A stretch of 64,000 bases of DNA. Source: a virus. The stretch is from positions 37,725 to 101,724 of IMG/VR virus record IMGVR_UViG_3300021168_000002; one strand, written 5' to 3'. Below are positions 13,582-54,938 of this stretch, piece by piece (position 1 is the first letter of the stretch; the number at the start of each line of letters is the position of its first letter). The notes under the pieces are model-generated. The model made no database searches. It was not told the origin of the DNA and was given only the letters and a program-made list of their open reading frames with translations. Both the position numbers and the translations under genes were made by a program.

Positions 13582-13764
13582 ATGAGCGAGAAAGAGAAGA
13601 AATACGGACCCTCAGACTTCCAAGCGGAAGTAGAGCGTTTGCACGCTGCGGGCAAGCTGCCCCAGCTTCACGAGCTACTCGGCGCGGTTGCCGAGAGTAG
13701 AGCCGAATTCGCAGATAAGATTTTGGCCGCAAGGAAGAAAGGCACAGACGCAGAAAATGAATAA
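13582..13764 (+). CDS. Small hypothetical protein
   Basis: A 60-residue charged helical protein (YGPSDFQAEVERLHAAGKLP) with no recognised domain. It is the first gene after the promoter at 13537-13565, has the ribosome site AGAGGA, and its end overlaps the endonuclease start (ATGAATAA). Confidence 0.65.
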   Translation: MSEKEKKYGPSDFQAEVERLHAAGKLPQLHELLGAVAESRAEFADKILAARKKGTDAENE

Positions 13765-14344
13765 TCGTCAAATAACAAGAATGAAAGCCCGTGCCACAGA
13801 TAGCATCGGGAAACTACGAGGAACGCGCATTCGGCTTAATGGAGGCTTGCACGCGGTCTACACGGGGCGAGCGGTTAAATGCTGGGATAACTCTCAAAAG
13901 AATTGGGTTCCTGTATTAAGATGCGAGGCGAACGGTCACGAATTTATAGCTCCGCATTATACACATGGTCGTCAACACCCGGTGAATTGCGCTCAGTGTG
14001 TTAAAGAGAATGGTGGACCTAGGGGATGGAAGCGATTGCTTCTTCAAGTTTCAAGATTCGGCTTATCCATAGATCGTCTTTTGTCAATGAGAAAACGTCA
14101 AACCAACTCTGACGGGGAAGTTGTTTGCGCCATCTGTAAGAAACCGGAAACTATTGAGCGTCTTTGTGTCGACCACGACCATACATGCTGTAACAATGGA
14201 GACGAATCTTGTGGCTCATGCGTTCGATGCCTACTTTGTCGAGCCTGTAATCAAGTAGTTGGCTTGATTGAATCGGGAAAACTTTGTAAGACGTTTGCAC
14301 CTAAGCACGGAGAATATATAGAAAAGGAGAAAATCAAATGCTGA
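13757..14344 (+). CDS. Endonuclease VII-type (His-Cys) nuclease
   Basis: A 195-residue protein. The core near residues 110-175 has a CAIC pair, the VDHDHTCC catalytic His/Asp motif and RCLLCRACNQ, the arrangement of the recombination endonuclease VII/HNH family, in which four Cys bind zinc and DHDH is catalytic. The N-terminal half has further Cys pairs (CAQC). The start at 13757 is chosen because it overlaps the previous stop. Such free-standing enzymes are frequently homing endonucleases; Holliday-junction resolution is the alternative role. Confidence 0.75.
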   Translation: MNNRQITRMKARATDSIGKLRGTRIRLNGGLHAVYTGRAVKCWDNSQKNWVPVLRCEANGHEFIAPHYTHGRQHPVNCAQCVKENGGPRGWKRLLLQVSRFGLSIDRLLSMRKRQTNSDGEVVCAICKKPETIERLCVDHDHTCCNNGDESCGSCVRCLLCRACNQVVGLIESGKLCKTFAPKHGEYIEKEKIKC

Positions 14345-39945: not shown

Positions 39946-40626
39946 CTATTTGTAATTTTCCGCTTCAATACGAGTTAGAAAAAAGTGAATTCCACCAGAG
40001 CATTCTTCCCAGCGATTTTCATCCCATTTATCGGCTCGTACCCACTGCCCTGTTTTGTAGGTGAATGTAGAGTCATGTTTAGAAATACCAATTTCTGCGC
40101 CGATAACTTCGAGCACTTTTGCTCGCTCTGCACGGCACTTACGCCCGGTCGCATTAGATCGACGGGCCTTGGAAGGAATGAATAGCCGGACAAGAACATT
40201 ATTTTCACATATTTTCCATCCAAAAAGCGGGCCGTGATCTGGAACGATGGATGTTTGTGCCCATACCAATTCTGCATTTTTCGCGCCGTACAGGTCCGCG
40301 CCGTACAGGTCCGCGCCGGACAGGTCCGCGCCGTACAGGTCCGCGCCGCGCAGGTCCGCGCCGCGCAGGTTCGCGCCGTACAGGTTCGCGCCGTACAGGT
40401 TCGCGCCGCGCAGGTTCGCGCCGTACAGGTCCGCGCCGGACAGGTCCGCGCCGGACAGGTCCGCGCCGGACAGGTCCGCGCCGGACAGGTTCGCGCCGGA
40501 CAGGTTCGCGCCGCGCAGGTTCGCGCCGGATTTAATAGCGGCTAAGATTAGCGCAGCAAAACTTTCTGCTTCCGCTTGATAAAGAACTTTTGAACTATCA
40601 TATTTTGATAAAATTTGTCGATTCAT
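39946..40626 (-). CDS. Pentapeptide-repeat protein with DUF5758-like C-terminus
   Basis: 226 residues. About 17 pentapeptides of A(N/D)L(R/S/Y)G type (residues about 35-118) would form a right-handed square beta-helix. The C-terminal domain has [35 protein letters not shown] and [14 protein letters not shown], as in DUF5758 proteins. Some such helices mimic DNA. The repeat is almost perfect at DNA level, suggesting recent expansion. Function unknown. Confidence 0.75.
40282..40530. repeat. 15-bp tandem repeat within the pentapeptide gene
   Basis: About 16 copies of the plus-strand unit CAGGTYCGCGCCGNN (codons for A-N/D-L-x-G on the minus strand). The variable two bases are TA, GA or CG. The array is in codon phase and has no spacers. 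Confidence 0.85.
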
Positions 40627-40676: not shown

Positions 40677-41075
40677 CTATTTATCGTCTCGAACGATCTC
40701 GATCTTGACCTTCTCTACTCCAAACTTTTTGATATCGATACGCCGCGCCACCCGGGCTGAGACGTCGATCTCCCGGCCCTCCTCGTACGGCCCCCGGTCG
40801 GTGACCACCGCAAACTCGCTGTGCCCGGTGCGTACGTTCGTAATACGGAGCCACGTCCCGCATGGCAGATACGGGTGTGCCGCTGTCAGTTTTTCAGGGT
40901 CGAATTTCTGACCGCAGGCGGTCTTCTTTCCCGCCCAAGCGTCGCCGTACCACGAAGACATTCCGGTCCAAGACTTGCTGTACTTTGGTTTCGGACTCGT
41001 CTTCGGAGCCTGCGCTTGCAGCGTCAACATCGGTAACATCACCGCAACTGTCAGAACCGCGAGTAGTTTTCTCAT
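40677..41075 (-). CDS. RlpA-like exported double-psi beta-barrel protein
   Basis: 132 residues. Signal peptide MRKLLAVLTVAVMLPMLTLQ with an AQA cleavage site. GMSSWYGDAWAGKKTACGQ, LTAAHPYLPCGTWLRITNV, VVTDRGPYEEGREIDVS and AARRID-type blocks match RlpA. In bacteria RlpA acts on glycan strands in the periplasm. Here it may assist lysis or remodel the wall. The catalytic-type Asp (TDRGPY) is kept. Confidence 0.85.
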   Translation of the reverse strand: MRKLLAVLTVAVMLPMLTLQAQAPKTSPKPKYSKSWTGMSSWYGDAWAGKKTACGQKFDPEKLTAAHPYLPCGTWLRITNVRTGHSEFAVVTDRGPYEEGREIDVSARVARRIDIKKFGVEKVKIEIVRDDK

Positions 41076-41944: not shown

Positions 41945-43087
41945 TCACTTGTGATAATACGTTCCTTGAAAACCGTCCGCGCCCAACAAGAGGCCGGGTG
42001 CCCACTCAACTTCCTTACTCATGATCTCGACCATGTCGTGATACGTCGGGCTGAGTAAATCGTCTTCGACTTGGCAGATTCCCTCGTCGTGAACGTGGCC
42101 GATGACTGGCATCTCTGCGGCCTCGAATTCGAGCAGCTTCACCGCCAAGACGTCGCGCGCGATTCCTTGTACTGCGTTCTGAAATGTGTGCCCGCCGTGG
42201 GTGGATATGCTGTTGCACCACTGCTTGGTCTTCTGGTTCATGCCCGCGTAAATGAGCGAGTCGCGGTAGACGTCGATCTCGCTGCCCTCGTCGTCCTGTG
42301 TCTTCCACGGCATCATCGTCAGTTCCAGGCGCGCATCCAAGTAGTGGAGGTACCGCCCGCTGGGCAGCCGCATCCTCATCATCGGCTCCCGTTCCTTGTT
42401 GCCCGCTGCGTCGATGAAGTTGACACGGTCAATTACCACGCAGCCGCCTGGACCTAGACGGCGGGAGGTGGCCGGGTGGTCTGGGTGCATCACGTCTGCG
42501 ACCGCGACCTCGAATTGTTTCCAGATTCCAGTTTTAGGGTCACATATTTCTGGATAAGAGTCTCGGAAGATACGCACAACTTCCGCCGCCTGTTCCTGCG
42601 ACATCTCCACACCCATATTATCCGCGTAACCCCAAAGCCCGGTCTTGACGCGGTCGCGGACCTCTTCGCAGTAGCAGTACTTCTTGCCTATCTTCTTGAC
42701 CTTCCCATTCTGCTGGACGTATGTATCGTCGGCATTGCAAAGGTCGCCGTGGTCCTTGTACGCGTTTGGACTTTTGCCCCATCCGCCGCCCGATTGACGG
42801 TAGACGGCGGCCAGCACTCCCGGCTTCGCCAATTGGCGCATGCGCTTCGCAGCCAGCTTGCGTTCCTTGCCGTTCCTTCCCGTGTAGTCGGCCCAAAGGT
42901 GATCGTAACTCATGCCAAACATCTTCGCCGCGAAGGCGATGTATGGGTCCCGACCGTTCCGCCAATATACTCCAAACTGATCTGTGTAAGGGACGAATAC
43001 ATTCATCAAGTCGGTGCAGCCCGAGAGCCACGCGGAGACGCGAGTCTCAATACCGTTCAAGTCGCAGACATTGAAGCGAGTGCTCAC
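41945..43087 (-). CDS. DNA polymerase A, C-terminal (palm/fingers) subunit of a split enzyme
   Basis: 380 residues from GTG 43087, overlapping the stop of the 68-codon gene (GTGA). It begins exactly at palm motif A: FNVCDLNGIETRVSAW (D9, E14). Motif B is in the RKLAAKRMRQL...AAVYRQSGGGW region, and motif C is VIGHVHDEGI (near residue 333). All catalytic acids are present, so polymerisation should be possible if it pairs with the N-terminal product at 43300-44490. Confidence 0.9.
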   Translation of the reverse strand: MSTRFNVCDLNGIETRVSAWLSGCTDLMNVFVPYTDQFGVYWRNGRDPYIAFAAKMFGMSYDHLWADYTGRNGKERKLAAKRMRQLAKPGVLAAVYRQSGGGWGKSPNAYKDHGDLCNADDTYVQQNGKVKKIGKKYCYCEEVRDRVKTGLWGYADNMGVEMSQEQAAEVVRIFRDSYPEICDPKTGIWKQFEVAVADVMHPDHPATSRRLGPGGCVVIDRVNFIDAAGNKEREPMMRMRLPSGRYLHYLDARLELTMMPWKTQDDEGSEIDVYRDSLIYAGMNQKTKQWCNSISTHGGHTFQNAVQGIARDVLAVKLLEFEAAEMPVIGHVHDEGICQVEDDLLSPTYHDMVEIMSKEVEWAPGLLLGADGFQGTYYHK

Positions 43088-43290
43088 TTTAGCCTCGTGT
43101 ACGCCAGCCGTCGAAGCGGCGTTTCGCAAATCAGGTGCGCGAGCCACAGAGGAAAGCCTTTGCGGTGAACCCATATTTGCGTGTCGGGTTCGCCGCTCCA
43201 GGCTATCATCTGTCTAGCTCTTTCAATGGCGGCTTCCTTCGTATCGTACAAAGGCTCTCCGTCTTTTTCATCGAATCCTGTGAATGTCAT
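43084..43290 (-). CDS. 68-residue protein encoded between the two polymerase halves
   Basis: Strong ribosome site GAGGAGG before ATG 43290. The start lies 9 bases after the N-terminal polymerase gene, and the TGA overlaps the GTG of the C-terminal gene. The pattern YDTKEAAIERARQMI and IWVHRKGF faintly resembles small DUF2188-type domains. It is not an endonuclease or an intein fragment by motif. It might bridge the polymerase halves, but that is speculation. Confidence 0.65.
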   Translation of the reverse strand: MTFTGFDEKDGEPLYDTKEAAIERARQMIAWSGEPDTQIWVHRKGFPLWLAHLICETPLRRLAYTRLK

Positions 43291-43299
43291 AAAGCCTCC

Positions 43300-44490
43300 T
43301 CATGATGTGACGAACACCGTACGGATTAACGACTTCACCACCAGCAAGACGCTCAGATACTTTGCTTTAATGCCTTCGTAATCTTCCGCGTATACCATTG
43401 CGCGAGCATCTTGAACTACCTTCTGATCTTCGAAATCGTGGCCTCCCACAACCAGTGGACGTGCCAAATTATGAAGTTGTACAGCCGTACCAGACCATCT
43501 ACCACAGCGAGGGCTGCCGAGGAAAATAAACTGCCCACGTAACCTCCCATCAGGTGAAACTGATTCCAATATCTTGCCCAGCTTTTGATAGCTCGTGCTG
43601 GCCGCTTCCGCGCGCATCTTTAGCGCGGCGCGGCACGCGTCTGTCAACTTGATGTCCGGGTCCTTCAAGACCGATGTGACCGTATCCTTACGGATGGTGC
43701 CATACGGATAGCCCTGCGTCTTGGCCCACGCCTTAACCTGGGTGGGTGAATTCGCATTCGTTACGCCGGTCATCTTTTCGAAGTTCAACTTGGCCTCTTC
43801 CTTCGCGCGAATGGCCAGCGCATACATCTTACGAACGAATTCCACGTCCACCGGCATCCCGCGATCATTCACCGTCTGATCGAAGAGCCACAGCTTCTGT
43901 TCAAATTCAGGCAGCGGCAGCGCCTTCAAGATTCGCATGCGTCTGAGTAGCTCACCTTCCGCGATCAAGTCCTGCCGTCCATATTCGAGAAACTCTGCCC
44001 ATTCTTTAGGATGCGAATTCCAATCGTTGTAGTATTCGCGGCCTTCCCTCTTCTTCGTTGCCGTCACGATGACCTTGTCGCAGAACAGTTTAATCAGCGC
44101 GTCTCCGCGTGCATCCTTTGCCAAGTGCGTTGGCACGCCTAGGACTTCGCACTGCACCTCCAGGCTGGCCGGGAGCGAGAGATAGCGACCACCGACTTGG
44201 GGGTCGATGAAACGGCTGGCCGGGATTTCATGATGCAGCTTCTGAAACATATAACGTTCAAAGCAAGAATTGAAGGCTACGAAATATGCGTCCGGATGAT
44301 TCGCTGCCTGCCATAATTCATCATGTATCTTCTCGCCTTCCCAGATACGCCAGCATTTATAGTCGCCCGTGCCGATTCGGTACCACAAAAATAAAGGTTC
44401 TGTATCCAGCGAGAAGATGTAGTTATACAGTCCCCGGTCGGAAGGAGAGAAGGTGCTGCGCGATTCAAAGTCGATCAAGACTTCAATCAT
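43300..44490 (-). CDS. DNA polymerase A, N-terminal (3'-5' exonuclease/thumb) subunit of a split enzyme
   Basis: 396 residues from ATG 44490 (a TTG at 44502 is an alternative). Exonuclease motifs: IDFESRS (D7, E9), VAFNSCFERYMF and YGRQD. The thumb region follows, then GSPRCGRWSGTAVQLHNLAR, the conserved block just before the palm. It stops after SLIRTVFVTS, at the point where motif A should follow. The full proofreading set is kept. The partner gene is 213 bases further on. Confidence 0.9.
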   Translation of the reverse strand: MIEVLIDFESRSTFSPSDRGLYNYIFSLDTEPLFLWYRIGTGDYKCWRIWEGEKIHDELWQAANHPDAYFVAFNSCFERYMFQKLHHEIPASRFIDPQVGGRYLSLPASLEVQCEVLGVPTHLAKDARGDALIKLFCDKVIVTATKKREGREYYNDWNSHPKEWAEFLEYGRQDLIAEGELLRRMRILKALPLPEFEQKLWLFDQTVNDRGMPVDVEFVRKMYALAIRAKEEAKLNFEKMTGVTNANSPTQVKAWAKTQGYPYGTIRKDTVTSVLKDPDIKLTDACRAALKMRAEAASTSYQKLGKILESVSPDGRLRGQFIFLGSPRCGRWSGTAVQLHNLARPLVVGGHDFEDQKVVQDARAMVYAEDYEGIKAKYLSVLLVVKSLIRTVFVTS

Positions 44491-46522
44491 TGTCGCCGCC
44501 AAACATCATGTCACGAGTCATGCGAACCACACACGGGTCGCCCTTGCAGCCCTTGCCCTCGATAATGATGAAGCCTTCTTGCACCAGCGCGTAGAAACTT
44601 TTACGCCAGACCGACAGCCCGTACTTGTTGGCGTTCAACGCACGCTCCACGTCGCGCTTCTCCATCGTGCCGCCGTTCTTCTTGAGCAGCCGCACGACGC
44701 CCTGCTGGATGGCGGACTCGTCGTTCTTGGCCTCGAAGGTCATGAGGTAGTCCTTGACGGACTCCTCGTATTTCACCATCTCGATGCCGCGTGCGACGCA
44801 GTCTTCGTCTATTTCGCCATCGAGTCCCAGGTCAATCGCGAAGTACAGCGCCCACTTCTCAGCGCGGGCGGCGGCGCGGTTGCCGTAAACTTCCAAAATA
44901 CGTTGCAGCGGGGTCTTGTCGAAGAACTGGTAGCTGCCTCTCGTTACGGCTGCATCGATCACCTTGCGGGTCGCCAGGGCGGCCTCGTTGTAGTTTACCG
45001 CATGCTCCAGCTTCAGTGTGGGTAGCGTCTTCGGTTCCAGAATCCAAGTGAATCGATCATTCAATCCGGTGTCTTCCCCGGCGAGTTGAGACCACAGTTC
45101 CGCAAATTTGCGGTCGGTGGTCGCGGTGACAAGCGTCGCGCAGTATGTACCAGGGTCTATGTTGAAGGTATCCTTCTTAGTTTTAATCGAATTGGAAAAA
45201 CTATTCGAGTCGTACAATTTTAGCAGCGCGCTATTCATCCCGCTGCCCTCGATGCGGGCCTTGCCTACCAAAGCAGATAGCTCGTCGTAAACCAAGATCG
45301 GATTCTTGCAGTTGGTACGCATCATGTCGGTGCCCAACCCTTCCGGCGAGCCTGCTTCCCACACGAGCGACTTCCCGTCGGCATTCTTAATATTCCTCGA
45401 ATACATTGAGAGCACACTGGCGAATTCTAAAAACCGCATCGCGTCCCTGATCGAAGATGACTTATTCGAGCGGCCTTTCTTTCCGATCAGCACCATGTAA
45501 AAGCTGGGCTTCCACGATACGTACGGCACAGAGACCTTGGTACCGAGGTAGTTCATCATCATCGCGGCGGTTGGGAGAAACATGAAGTAGTCAACCCGAG
45601 AATTGCTCTCGCAGTACGGCTTCACGAATCCTTCATAGATAGACGTGCCAAACATGACGTGGCGGGGAAACAACGGGTATTCAATCGGCTCAAAATTCAG
45701 CGGCTCCGCTGACTCCATCGGGACGACTGTTGGTATCTGATTCAAGATGATAGCCGTTTCTTCGCCCACCGGGAAGTTGCAAATAGACCTCGACATCAGA
45801 ATAACTTTCGAATCGTCAATCGGTTCTTCGCATTGCTCGTGAACAATGCGCAGCAGCGCGACCTCGATCTCCTCGTGCGTGAGACCTGCGTTGCGCATCC
45901 TGCCAGCCTGCGACAACATGAAACCGTGGATGCTGCCGTGAGGAACCTTACCGCGCTCATTGCGGGGCGCGTCGTCTGGCGCGGCGGTTTGCTTCTGAAT
46001 CTTCTGTGACATCAGCCACTGGACGAGCCAGTCCGGTGCCTCCGCGATTGGCGTAGCCCAATTTAGCGCCGTGTAAGGCTGGCCAGTATCTGGATGGATG
46101 CTGCCGGGGCCGACAACATACTCGCGATTCGTGCGAACGGACCAGTCTTGGCCGACGACGTAAGTCTGGCTAATATTGCCCATCTCAAGAGAGACAGCGG
46201 TATGGCGAAAATAGAAGTGACCGCGTCCGGGGCGAGAGCGCACCATGAATGTCGCAGGCATCTGCTGGCCGGTATCGCGCAGTATGCGGGGCAGAACGTC
46301 CTTAGAATCTGTTTCAAAAAACCAGACGCCGCTAACTTCTGCGCGGGCCACGCAGGCCACGTTGCTGTCGGGAAATTGAGCGTCCCACGCGGTGATCTGG
46401 TCGAGGCTGGTAGTTGCTGTGGTGGGGAAATCTGGTAGGAAGGCGCGCTTCGTGCCGGGGCGCACGGGTGTGACTGGCACGCCCAACTTTGCTAGCGGTT
46501 CGGCAATCTGTTTAAATCCCAT
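44483..46522 (-). CDS. Primase-polymerase / helicase fusion
   Basis: 679 residues. Residues 1-170 are a bifunctional primase-polymerase (AEP) domain: FFETDSKD (E70-x-D72), SRPGRGHFYFRH and YVVGPGSIHPDTGQPY. Residues from about 280 are a DUF3987-like ATPase with P-loop IGKKGRSNKSS (about 346-356), Walker B-type ILVYDEL and a DRFTWILEP arginine-finger-like block. It would prime and unwind at the replication fork with the adjacent polymerase, SSB-like protein and exonuclease. Confidence 0.85.
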   Translation of the reverse strand: MGFKQIAEPLAKLGVPVTPVRPGTKRAFLPDFPTTATTSLDQITAWDAQFPDSNVACVARAEVSGVWFFETDSKDVLPRILRDTGQQMPATFMVRSRPGRGHFYFRHTAVSLEMGNISQTYVVGQDWSVRTNREYVVGPGSIHPDTGQPYTALNWATPIAEAPDWLVQWLMSQKIQKQTAAPDDAPRNERGKVPHGSIHGFMLSQAGRMRNAGLTHEEIEVALLRIVHEQCEEPIDDSKVILMSRSICNFPVGEETAIILNQIPTVVPMESAEPLNFEPIEYPLFPRHVMFGTSIYEGFVKPYCESNSRVDYFMFLPTAAMMMNYLGTKVSVPYVSWKPSFYMVLIGKKGRSNKSSSIRDAMRFLEFASVLSMYSRNIKNADGKSLVWEAGSPEGLGTDMMRTNCKNPILVYDELSALVGKARIEGSGMNSALLKLYDSNSFSNSIKTKKDTFNIDPGTYCATLVTATTDRKFAELWSQLAGEDTGLNDRFTWILEPKTLPTLKLEHAVNYNEAALATRKVIDAAVTRGSYQFFDKTPLQRILEVYGNRAAARAEKWALYFAIDLGLDGEIDEDCVARGIEMVKYEESVKDYLMTFEAKNDESAIQQGVVRLLKKNGGTMEKRDVERALNANKYGLSVWRKSFYALVQEGFIIIEGKGCKGDPCVVRMTRDMMFGGDND

Positions 46523-49862: not shown

Positions 49863-50098
49863 GCGGCCCTCTTAATTGCTTCTTTGATATCGTTTGGTTC
49901 CCCGTCTACAGGGCACGGTACAACCTTGCGTTCCGGATTCAAGTCGCTCACGAACCATCCCCGGCCACAGCGACCACAGCGTAGATTGCCGGTGAAGTGG
50001 AGGACGTTTTTCACACCTTGTCGCTCCCGGCGCTTGGTGCGAACTTCTCTACCGACTGCGGCCTGTTCTTGCGTGATCGGTTTGCGTTGTTCGCTCAT
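49859..50098 (-). CDS. Small zinc-ribbon protein
   Basis: 79 residues with LRCGRCGRGW and a later VVPCPVDG. Both ends overlap the neighbours by 4 bases. Confidence 0.6.
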   Translation of the reverse strand: MSEQRKPITQEQAAVGREVRTKRRERQGVKNVLHFTGNLRCGRCGRGWFVSDLNPERKVVPCPVDGEPNDIKEAIKRAA

Positions 50099-51135
50099 GC
50101 GTATGTCCCCCTATGATTTGCTCCTCCGCTATAATAAGGAGGTGTCAAACTTGCGGTCTTCTCGTAACGCGGCGAACCAAATCGAACATACCAGTCCTTG
50201 ATTACCTTTGAACGGTCTGATGGTGATACTGCCGTATGATAGTACACACCCCGCTTATTGCCGTGGTGTGTTGACGCCTTCTTCTCGATCTTGATTTGAA
50301 CCAAATCGTGGCCCATAAATTCTACTCCGAGAGCCTCCAGAGGCGTCATGTTTAGTACTTCAAGGGCCTTAAAGAAGGCGGCAATCCTGCGTCTGCGCGG
50401 ACTCGCGCCGTCTCCGATAGGCTTGCCGTGCTCTTTGCAGCACACCTTTCGCCACACACAACCCGGAACCGTACACCACTTTTCTTGATTTACTCCGTCG
50501 TGAGCCTGCGTTTTCGTTGGCGCGAGAGGCAAAGGATTCTTACAATCCTCTGTACAATTGGGGCAGTGCAGACGGAGGAAAGCCATCATCTTTTTATATA
50601 CCTCATCATCCACGCCCTCGTGTCCGGTTCCTTGCGTCTCTCCCAAATGTTTATAGATACGTGAGTACTGCGTCGCCTTGTTTCCGCCAAATAGCGATGT
50701 AGTCGTGATACCCATCAGGCTTTGTCCATATCTATCCTCTACAAAATCTCCGAGAGTATAGGCGATCATCGCCATCAACTTGCCGAGATTCCAGTGCCAG
50801 CCAATCGGCTGTGCGGCCACGCAGACGCTCATATCCATGTACCCCTGTATTACTTTTCCCTTCTCTTGCTTTGCCATGCCAGGGAAGAGATAGGCATCTC
50901 TCACAGAGAGAGCGAGGACCGGGCTGGCTAAAAAGATTAATCCCAGCAAGTGCTCTCCGTGAACCACTAGAAAACCAAGTTTGCGGCCAAAAGCGGGACG
51001 CCAAACTGCCTTCGACATTTGCTTCTGGTAGTAGGTCATTACACCTGCTGATACTTGTATGACTTCGATCTTATTCGGTTCGATCTCGAAAAGCGGAGTC
51101 GTCACCGAGTAACTTTTTAACTTCTCGTCTGTCAT
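50095..51135 (-). CDS. DruA-like (DUF4338) protein
   Basis: 346 residues. GRKLGFLVVHGEHLLGLI, SVRDAYLF, YMDMSVCVAA, NLGKLMAMIAY, EDRYG, ITTTSLFGG and SRIYKHLGETQGTGH occur in the same order as in DruA (DUF4338) of the Druantin anti-phage system and related proteins. A Cys cluster (HCPNCTEDCKNP, CVWRKVCC) is inserted or added C-terminally. The molecular activity of DruA is not established. The other Druantin genes are not adjacent. Confidence 0.6.
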   Translation of the reverse strand: MTDEKLKSYSVTTPLFEIEPNKIEVIQVSAGVMTYYQKQMSKAVWRPAFGRKLGFLVVHGEHLLGLIFLASPVLALSVRDAYLFPGMAKQEKGKVIQGYMDMSVCVAAQPIGWHWNLGKLMAMIAYTLGDFVEDRYGQSLMGITTTSLFGGNKATQYSRIYKHLGETQGTGHEGVDDEVYKKMMAFLRLHCPNCTEDCKNPLPLAPTKTQAHDGVNQEKWCTVPGCVWRKVCCKEHGKPIGDGASPRRRRIAAFFKALEVLNMTPLEALGVEFMGHDLVQIKIEKKASTHHGNKRGVYYHTAVSPSDRSKVIKDWYVRFGSPRYEKTASLTPPYYSGGANHRGTYA

Positions 51136-53778: not shown

Positions 53779-54480
53779 CTATAATCCGAAGTGAACGAAT
53801 TGTCTGCCTATGAATCCTATCGCGATTCCCGCGCCAAGCCACTTCAATTTCGATTTCCGCGCGTTGTCTTTTACCAACTTGAGTTCCTCGTTGTCTTTCT
53901 TGATTTGCCCTGCGAGAACTACTGCATCCTGCTTGATGATACCTGCTTGGTCAGATATTGTACCCTCCTGATTCTTGATGACGCCTGCTTGTTGCACCAC
54001 AGTCTGCGCATCAGCGAGTCCCTGGTCCAACTTCGCGACGATCTGTTGACCCAACGGCAGCGGTACAATCAAATCCTGAGATGAGTCGAGAGTGATAGTG
54101 CCCTGCTTAAACCCGGTAATAGTCTCTATGCGGTGGCCAAGTTCTGGCGCAGGAAGCGCTTGGTCGTGGATTATTTGAACCTTCGTTTGGGATTGGATTT
54201 GCGCTATGGATGCGAGGAATGTGGCATTTTCTTTCTGGCGCTCCACCTCATTGGCTGCGTACGCGGCTGCCAGTTGAGAGGAGTGATCTTTCTCTACAGC
54301 CAGGGCCTGCTCTGCGGCTGTAGCGCGGGCTTCTTGAAGAGAGGCCCACTTCGCTTCGACGGAGTAAACTCCGAAGGTCAGCGCGCCTGCTAAGGCCAAG
54401 TAAAGTATGATGTGGTGGCCTGTGAGGAACACGCCGATCTTTGATTCGACCGCTTTGATTTCGCCTGGAATTGCCATCAT
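53779..54480 (-). CDS. Membrane protein with long coiled coil, possible spanin-like
   Basis: 233 residues. N-terminal transmembrane segment (ILYLALAGALTFGVYSVEA), a long Ala/Gln coiled coil (residues 48-110 and 160-210) and a second hydrophobic segment near the end (WLGAGIAIGFIGRQF). One-span inner spanins have a similar start, but the C-terminal hydrophobic segment differs. Function inferred weakly. Confidence 0.6.
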   Translation of the reverse strand: MMAIPGEIKAVESKIGVFLTGHHIILYLALAGALTFGVYSVEAKWASLQEARATAAEQALAVEKDHSSQLAAAYAANEVERQKENATFLASIAQIQSQTKVQIIHDQALPAPELGHRIETITGFKQGTITLDSSQDLIVPLPLGQQIVAKLDQGLADAQTVVQQAGVIKNQEGTISDQAGIIKQDAVVLAGQIKKDNEELKLVKDNARKSKLKWLGAGIAIGFIGRQFVHFGL

Positions 54481-54938
54481 TTACCTCTTCCTTGGTTCAA
54501 TAGCGGTTCCAGGGGGGTCATCAATTTAGCCTCTCGTCTGAGTCTTTTTCTGTGTGCCTTAGTGCCGGTGCGGCCAGGGTATCCGAAGTGATCTCTGCCG
54601 AGTGCTAGCCACGCTGGTGTTAGTTCCAAGTAATACGCGATTCTCTTAGCGAATATCGCCACGGTGAGAGTCGTGATCTTGCCGAGTCCGTACCGTTTGT
54701 ATGCGTTCTCGATCTTGCCGAGTAACGGATTGCATCTTGAACACAGCAGCCCGCGAATCTTTCCAGTGGTGTGGTCGTGGTCCACCGATAGTCGACGGCC
54801 TTTCACAGGCTCCGGTTGTTCGCAGGCATAACAAACGCCGCCTTGAAATGCAAAGATCGCATCGTACATTTCGACGGTCAGCTTGTAGTTGTCCATCAGC
54901 CGCTTAGCGCGAGCGCGTTCTTTTGCTTTGTCGTTCAC
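54477..54938 (-). CDS. Recombination endonuclease VII
   Basis: 153 residues. GGVCYACEQPEPVKGRRLSV, DHDHTTGKIRGLLCSRCN and the LLGKIENAYKRYG tail are the endonuclease VII signature (zinc Cys, catalytic DHDH). It can resolve branched DNA before packaging. A second, different member lies at 13757-14344. Confidence 0.85.
   Translation of the reverse strand: MNDKAKERARAKRLMDNYKLTVEMYDAIFAFQGGVCYACEQPEPVKGRRLSVDHDHTTGKIRGLLCSRCNPLLGKIENAYKRYGLGKITTLTVAIFAKRIAYYLELTPAWLALGRDHFGYPGRTGTKAHRKRLRREAKLMTPLEPLLNQGRGK

Follow-up and report, generated by a model that had tools for sequence, protein, structure and literature searches.

The stretch of DNA analyzed here (64,000 nucleotides, hereafter the window) is part of a 101,724-bp virus record, IMGVR_UViG_3300021168_000002, and encodes a predicted DNA polymerase in two adjacent genes with a 68-codon gene between them (Table 1). 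The N-terminal ORF starts with the ATG at 44490 and ends with the TGA at 43302-43300, its product terminating in ...KSLIRTVFVTS*. The C-terminal ORF is in frame from the GTG at 43087, and its product has the N-terminal residues VSTRFNVCDLNGIETR. In relatives that have no insert (L002, L003 and L128), the ATG of the ATGA overlap that corresponds to the end of the N gene is the start of the C gene. The primase-helicase gene is the upstream neighbor in the same replication operon, and its end overlaps the N gene. We found no terminator inside the operon and one promoter-like site, at chance level.

Table 1. Features of the polymerase locus, in window coordinates.
Feature	Position	Strand	Evidence
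N-terminal polymerase gene (3'-5' exonuclease, thumb, start of palm)	43300..44490	-	ORF; 396 aa
68-codon gene	43084..43290	-	ORF; homologues in L007 (72%) and L006 (67%)
C-terminal polymerase gene (motifs A, B and C; palm and fingers)	41945..43087	-	ORF; 380 aa; GTG start
ATGA at end of N gene	43300..43303	-	Sequence; compared with L002, L003 and L128
AGGAGG ribosome-binding sequence of 68-aa gene	43295..43300	-	AGGAGG-CTTT-ATG; 4-nt spacing to ATG
GTGA stop/start overlap of 68-aa gene and C gene	43084..43087	-	Sequence
Primase-helicase gene (Prim-Pol, DUF3987)	44483..46522	-	Pfam Prim-Pol, 2.8e-21

Several other genes of the window merit mention. Shortly downstream of the polymerase operon lie genes for a pentapeptide-repeat protein with a DUF5758 tail (39946-40626, minus strand) and for an RlpA-like double-psi beta-barrel protein with a signal-like start (40677-41075, minus strand; PF03330, 8e-17); in L128, a gene similar to the latter comes after the polymerase. 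The product of 50095-51135 (minus strand) matches DruA (PF14236, 1.7e-10), a protein of the Druantia defense system, here in a phage genome.

Both polymerase genes matched the DNA polymerase profile phrog_17, the N half at positions 675-1001 (7.4e-42) and the C half at positions 1010-1232 (2.1e-32), and they thus represent consecutive parts of one profile. The N half keeps the exonuclease residues of Exo I (D7/E9), Exo II (N74) and Exo III (Y170/D174), while the C half keeps the polymerase residues of motif A (D9/E14), motif B (R84/K88/Y96) and motif C (H333-D334-E335). Judged by these Exo motifs and by motifs A, B and C, the enzyme is a family A DNA polymerase. A search of the whole record revealed no second DNA polymerase, and a PDB sequence search with both halves returned no match. 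The ratio dN/dS was ~0.07 for each half (window compared with L002) and 0.14 for the 68-aa gene (window compared with L007), values that are approximate because synonymous sites are close to saturation. Both polymerase halves are under strong purifying selection.

Intact relatives define what the split has changed. The nearest of them (L060 to L072) have 42-50% identity in the N half, and in most of them ...RTVFVAP-PGK-RFNVCDLNAIETR or a near variant of it runs through in one frame, whereas the window reads ...TVFVTS* / MSTRFNVCDLNGIETR. The PGK turn of the intact enzymes has become a stop followed by M-S-T, and otherwise no residue is lost in the alignment. One ancestral ORF is now two, with all motifs kept and intact relatives extant. 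An AlphaFold model of intact L060, built with 31 relatives (pLDDT 92), has a Klenow/T7-like fold in which a helix (residues 391-402) leads through a loop (405-408) into a strand (409-416) carrying the catalytic Asp415. The seam falls in that loop, so each half begins or ends at the border of a structural element. A preliminary description, made from the sequence alone, had reported a split before motif A with a 68-codon gene in between, full retention of the exonuclease and polymerase residues, and a perfect ribosome site and a GTGA overlap with the C gene for the intervening ORF. The ORFs, the junction sequence, the motif alignment and the alignment to intact relatives confirm all of this, with the refinement that the C protein has its catalytic motif A Asp at residue 9 and so begins 8 residues ahead of it, not on it.

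We searched for the same split in relatives and found the identical seam in 10 other contigs (L002-L005, L007, L019, L022, L023, L026 and L128), which come from several separate metagenomes. Because the seam is the same in all 10, the split as such cannot be an assembly error. The junctions themselves occur in several states. In L002, L003 and L128 there is no insert, and the stop of N and the start of C share the overlap ATGA. Small ORFs alone occur in L022 and L023, among them members of one family (53 and 70 aa); a 45-aa ORF of this family also occurs in L005. Five relatives carry endonuclease genes of several types at the junction: Endo VII genes in L004 (140 aa; PF02945, 1.2e-8), L005 (165 aa; PF02945, 2.4e-9) and L019 (190 aa; PF02945 at 7.8e-5, just under the cut-off, and phrog_423 at 7.2e-8), an HNH_3 endonuclease gene in L026 (239 aa; 4.9e-8), and in L007 a gene for a 209-aa endonuclease (phrog_3322, 6.7e-28) together with a homologue of the 68-aa gene. 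L128 (CABMCB010000010.1) is binned as an uncultured archaeon yet carries the uninserted split polymerase, and is thus probably a phage contig misassigned to an archaeal bin.

In a tree of 54 polymerases, the 10 split phages (window included, L128 left out) form one clade (support 100/99) that is sister to intact enzymes. L059 has the same cut, with an unrelated 93-aa Cys-rich ORF in between, and is placed among intact polymerases, so the split label needs two changes on the tree; two gains take fewer steps than one gain followed by several re-fusions. Two further candidates were set aside: the two-gene polymerase annotated in S-ESS1 has a different interruption, downstream of motif A, and the family A polymerase of L098 (5836-9864), interrupted by intein-like sequences that enclose a gene for a GIY-YIG-like endonuclease, is a fractured-gene arrangement of different mechanism that is unrelated to the window.

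A published precedent is the family A DNA polymerase of the OM43 phages MEP401 and MEP402, which is split and accompanied by a small ORF (PMC10580990; OP830906). In MEP401, an isolated marine phage, gp13 ends in KTLFLSRYGE* and gp15 begins with MILNADAKALEW, with the 77-aa gp14 between them. As in the window, a family A polymerase is cut at the same place before motif A and a small ORF intervenes; unlike the window, MEP401 has a polymerase of a distant lineage, close to the intact one of HMO-2011 (28% identity), and gp14 is unrelated to the 68-aa gene. Among 80 MEP401-related contigs, 76 include both halves, and the polymerase is split in every one of these (76/76). Their junctions hold various small ORFs, nothing (14 overlapping contigs) or an endonuclease (L287; 142 aa, phrog_3322 at 7.7e-29, 34% identical to that of L007). 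The isolated Alcaligenes phage vB_Af_QDWS535 (OK172329), also of the MEP401-type lineage, is cut in the same loop into two genes that overlap as TAATG; it resembles the window in this split and differs in having no insert. HMO-2011, a cousin of the MEP401 lineage, keeps its polymerase in one gene. In separate comparisons, not in one tree, the window clade was placed among intact relatives and the MEP401 lineage close to HMO-2011, whose polymerase is intact; with intact relatives on both sides, we infer that the two lineages split independently. The cut likewise appears to have arisen independently in L059 and in the MEP401/QDWS535-type phages.

The DNA around the seam also varies in its similarity between relatives. 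L004 and L005 are 87-95% identical far from the seam and only 69% and 78% identical beside the insert (p 1.5e-8 and 9.5e-9), and for L019 and L026 identity increases, from 73% to 88%, immediately downstream of the seam (p 1.4e-4). Both patterns suggest that sequence has been exchanged locally around the seam, as happens when homing is accompanied by co-conversion. The preliminary description had seen no connection of the split with homing enzymes, and this part does not stand: Endo VII or HNH genes occupy the same junction in five relatives, and in one of these (L007) the 68-aa gene also has a copy, 72% identical. The description itself had named such inserts in relatives as grounds for refutation; their presence refutes the idea that the split is independent of homing elements but leaves the two-subunit enzyme untouched. 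Endo VII genes are abundant in these genomes (1 to 10 per record); the window has two (PF02945), at 54477-54938 (minus strand, 5e-21) and 13688-14344 (plus strand, 1.5e-9).

Together, the results make it highly probable that this is a two-piece family A polymerase encoded by adjacent, coupled genes and inherited within the clade, with a seam that serves as an insertion point for endonucleases and passenger genes. Two polypeptides would be made from the adjacent genes, presumably by translational coupling; their halves would meet in the short loop between the helix and the palm strand that bears the motif A aspartate, and presumably assemble non-covalently into an active heterodimer. The split is inherited within the window's phage clade, and the seam would offer a safe insertion point for free-standing Endo VII and HNH endonucleases of putative homing type. 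Such endonucleases would enter the seam, be exchanged together with flanking polymerase sequence and then be lost, while small passenger genes may arrive, leave or remain. The window represents the state in which the endonuclease is absent and the 68-aa passenger is present.

The first cut may itself have been made by an endonuclease. Plain mutational fission, with later colonization of the junction, fits as well: a stop and a new start would have arisen in the loop by ordinary mutation, with endonucleases and small genes settling there afterwards. We regard this as a serious possibility that stops somewhat short of being probable. Uninserted forms are extant (L002, L003 and L128, the 14 overlapping MEP401-type contigs and the isolate QDWS535), gp43 of phage 44RR is split without an endonuclease (PMC2988022), and the window itself has no endonuclease at the seam. 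The seam endonucleases come from unrelated families, and since the five in the window's relatives are not of one family, no single founding endonuclease can be named. Against fission by mutation, two unrelated polymerase lineages hold related endonucleases (phrog_3322) at this seam, in L007 and L287, and the same site has been hit repeatedly, as expected were motif A DNA the target.

Five split polymerases carry a one-base lesion in motif A. In L005 (5973-6010), L019 (6775-6812) and L026 (7106-7143), a shared one-base insertion creates CTT TAA directly after the catalytic Asp codon. These are diverged phages with three different adjacent endonucleases and a common upstream GGAGAAGCAGCGATGA flank. 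Their leader, M(S/T)TRFNVCDL, is kept through mostly synonymous changes, a +1 shift restores N-A-I-E, and the C halves of L019 and L026 keep a dN/dS of 0.06. We found no Shine-Dalgarno-like stimulator near it, and the site looks like a prfB-like +1 frameshift site that lacks this element. L287 (2566-3050), with its MEP401-type split and 142-aa endonuclease at the seam, has a one-base deletion in motif A. Phage ctOsX528 (L290, 2282-2560; MW202697) has a split polymerase whose C half contains one extra base in motif A; the insert at the split encodes 68 aa annotated as R67 dihydrofolate reductase. Lesions seen in a single contig may be errors. Of 23 matches to the DNA pattern of the lesion, 20 lay outside these polymerases.

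An endonuclease lies at the seam in four of the five lesion carriers, which hints that the lesion shields the target, much as has been suggested for the 50-nt bypass in T4 gene 60 (PMC5009743). The C product of the carriers would need ribosomal frameshifting. Tentatively, and with more doubt than conviction, the seam before motif A could be a convergent target of homing endonucleases in family A polymerases, with an endonuclease-linked one-base lesion shielding the gene and frameshifting at CTT TAA, of the shifty-stop type, restoring the motif. If this is true, lesion and endonuclease would parallel the cassette of T4 gene 60 on the scale of one nucleotide, and the window would be a sister or descendant that has neither lesion nor endonuclease.

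The gene that the window carries at the seam has a patchy distribution. Its product had been described as not being an endonuclease, correctly so for the window's own protein, which has no endonuclease match in Pfam or PHROGs. It shows weak resemblance to DUF2188 (Pfam E 0.025, below the cut-off); tblastn against phages gave no hit, and PHROGs matches were at chance level only. The AlphaFold model has low confidence (pLDDT 68) and no PDB match. The family is present in 2 of 10 split genomes, those of the window and L007 (window counted, L128 not; records may be fragments), and a copy with 67% identity occurs in a different phage (L006), away from any polymerase. Between the window and L007, identity is 72% for the 68-aa gene compared with 51% for the N half and 59% for the C half, as expected for a moving passenger, although stronger constraint may also be the reason. 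Its position and overlap ensure co-expression with the polymerase and it is under purifying selection (dN/dS 0.14), which would suit a third subunit or regulator of the split enzyme. We nevertheless consider such a role quite unlikely: the gene is missing from 8 of the 10 split genomes searched (incomplete records), unrelated ORFs take its place in others, its homologue in L006 has no polymerase nearby, and its low-confidence model matches no fold. Judged by this distribution, the 68-aa gene is a dispensable passenger.

Introns and inteins are often found in phage polymerase genes. For the split polymerase of MEP401, its authors proposed an intron (PMC10580990). We nonetheless think it very unlikely that the two halves end up in a single chain by way of a group I intron, a split intein or ribosomal bypassing. 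Rfam searches of the window region gave chance-level matches only, up to E 5, and none at the gathering threshold in 12 related loci. Past the conserved IRTVF, the N half continues for 3 residues, and the C half has 3 ahead of the palm-strand RFNV; these ~3 residues per half beyond the aligned polymerase leave no room for intein halves. The uninserted, overlapping forms contain nothing to splice, so the absence of an intron or intein given in the preliminary description is upheld. We also rejected fusion of the uninserted forms by a -1 frameshift: no slippery heptamer occurs at ...GTCGCGTCATGA, and a stop-start overlap is simpler.

That the polymerase is decaying, or its split an assembly error, is extremely improbable: the motif A frame lesions of L005, L019, L026 and L287 could be read as decay, but the window polymerase has no lesion, a dN/dS of 0.07 and long open C frames, is the only polymerase in its record, and shares its seam with contigs from separate metagenomes. 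Purifying selection, the 10 relatives with the same seam, the insert-free forms, the lack of another polymerase in the record and the uninserted split of the isolate QDWS535 instead argue for the stable two-piece polymerase of the preliminary description over a broken gene.

Splits of this kind are already known, from MEP401 (PMC10580990) and from T4-type gp43A/B and Aeh1 nrdA (PMC2988022). The split gp43A/B of Aeromonas phage 25 co-purify with polymerase activity, and gp43 of Aeromonas phage 44RR is split with no endonuclease between (PMC2988022). As in the window's clade, two genes encode a replicative polymerase, and an endonuclease gene lies between them in phage 25 but not in 44RR; the enzyme, however, is of family B and the endonuclease of seg type (GIY-YIG) (PMC2988022). 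In Aeh1, the free-standing HNH endonuclease mobE splits the ribonucleotide reductase gene nrdA, and the split NrdA is active (PMC2988022). Here too an essential replication gene is in pieces, with a working two-piece product, but the enzyme is a different one and the endonuclease is still present. T4 gene 39/60 is endonuclease-split, and its downstream piece contains a 50-nt bypass thought to protect it from cleavage (PMC5009743). This recoding element of a downstream piece invites comparison with the motif A lesions of L005, L019 and L026, although the recoding is a 50-nt bypass in T4 and the window itself is lesion-free. In the literature searched, we did not find a description of recurrence at one loop, of the full series of junction states or of the motif A lesions. 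The new elements are this recurrence, the full set of junction states and one-base motif A lesions that occur mostly in endonuclease-bearing relatives.

A cut right before the catalytic strand of a replicative polymerase is tolerated, stable within a clade and recurrent in unrelated phages; the MEP401 case, published as a possible intron, is therefore better interpreted as an enzyme of two subunits. For a junction visited by selfish endonucleases, all states are documented: intact, with endonuclease, with endonuclease and passenger, with passenger only, and empty. The isolated phages QDWS535 and MEP401 make the two-piece polymerase testable at once, and the seam is a natural split point for two-piece polymerases.
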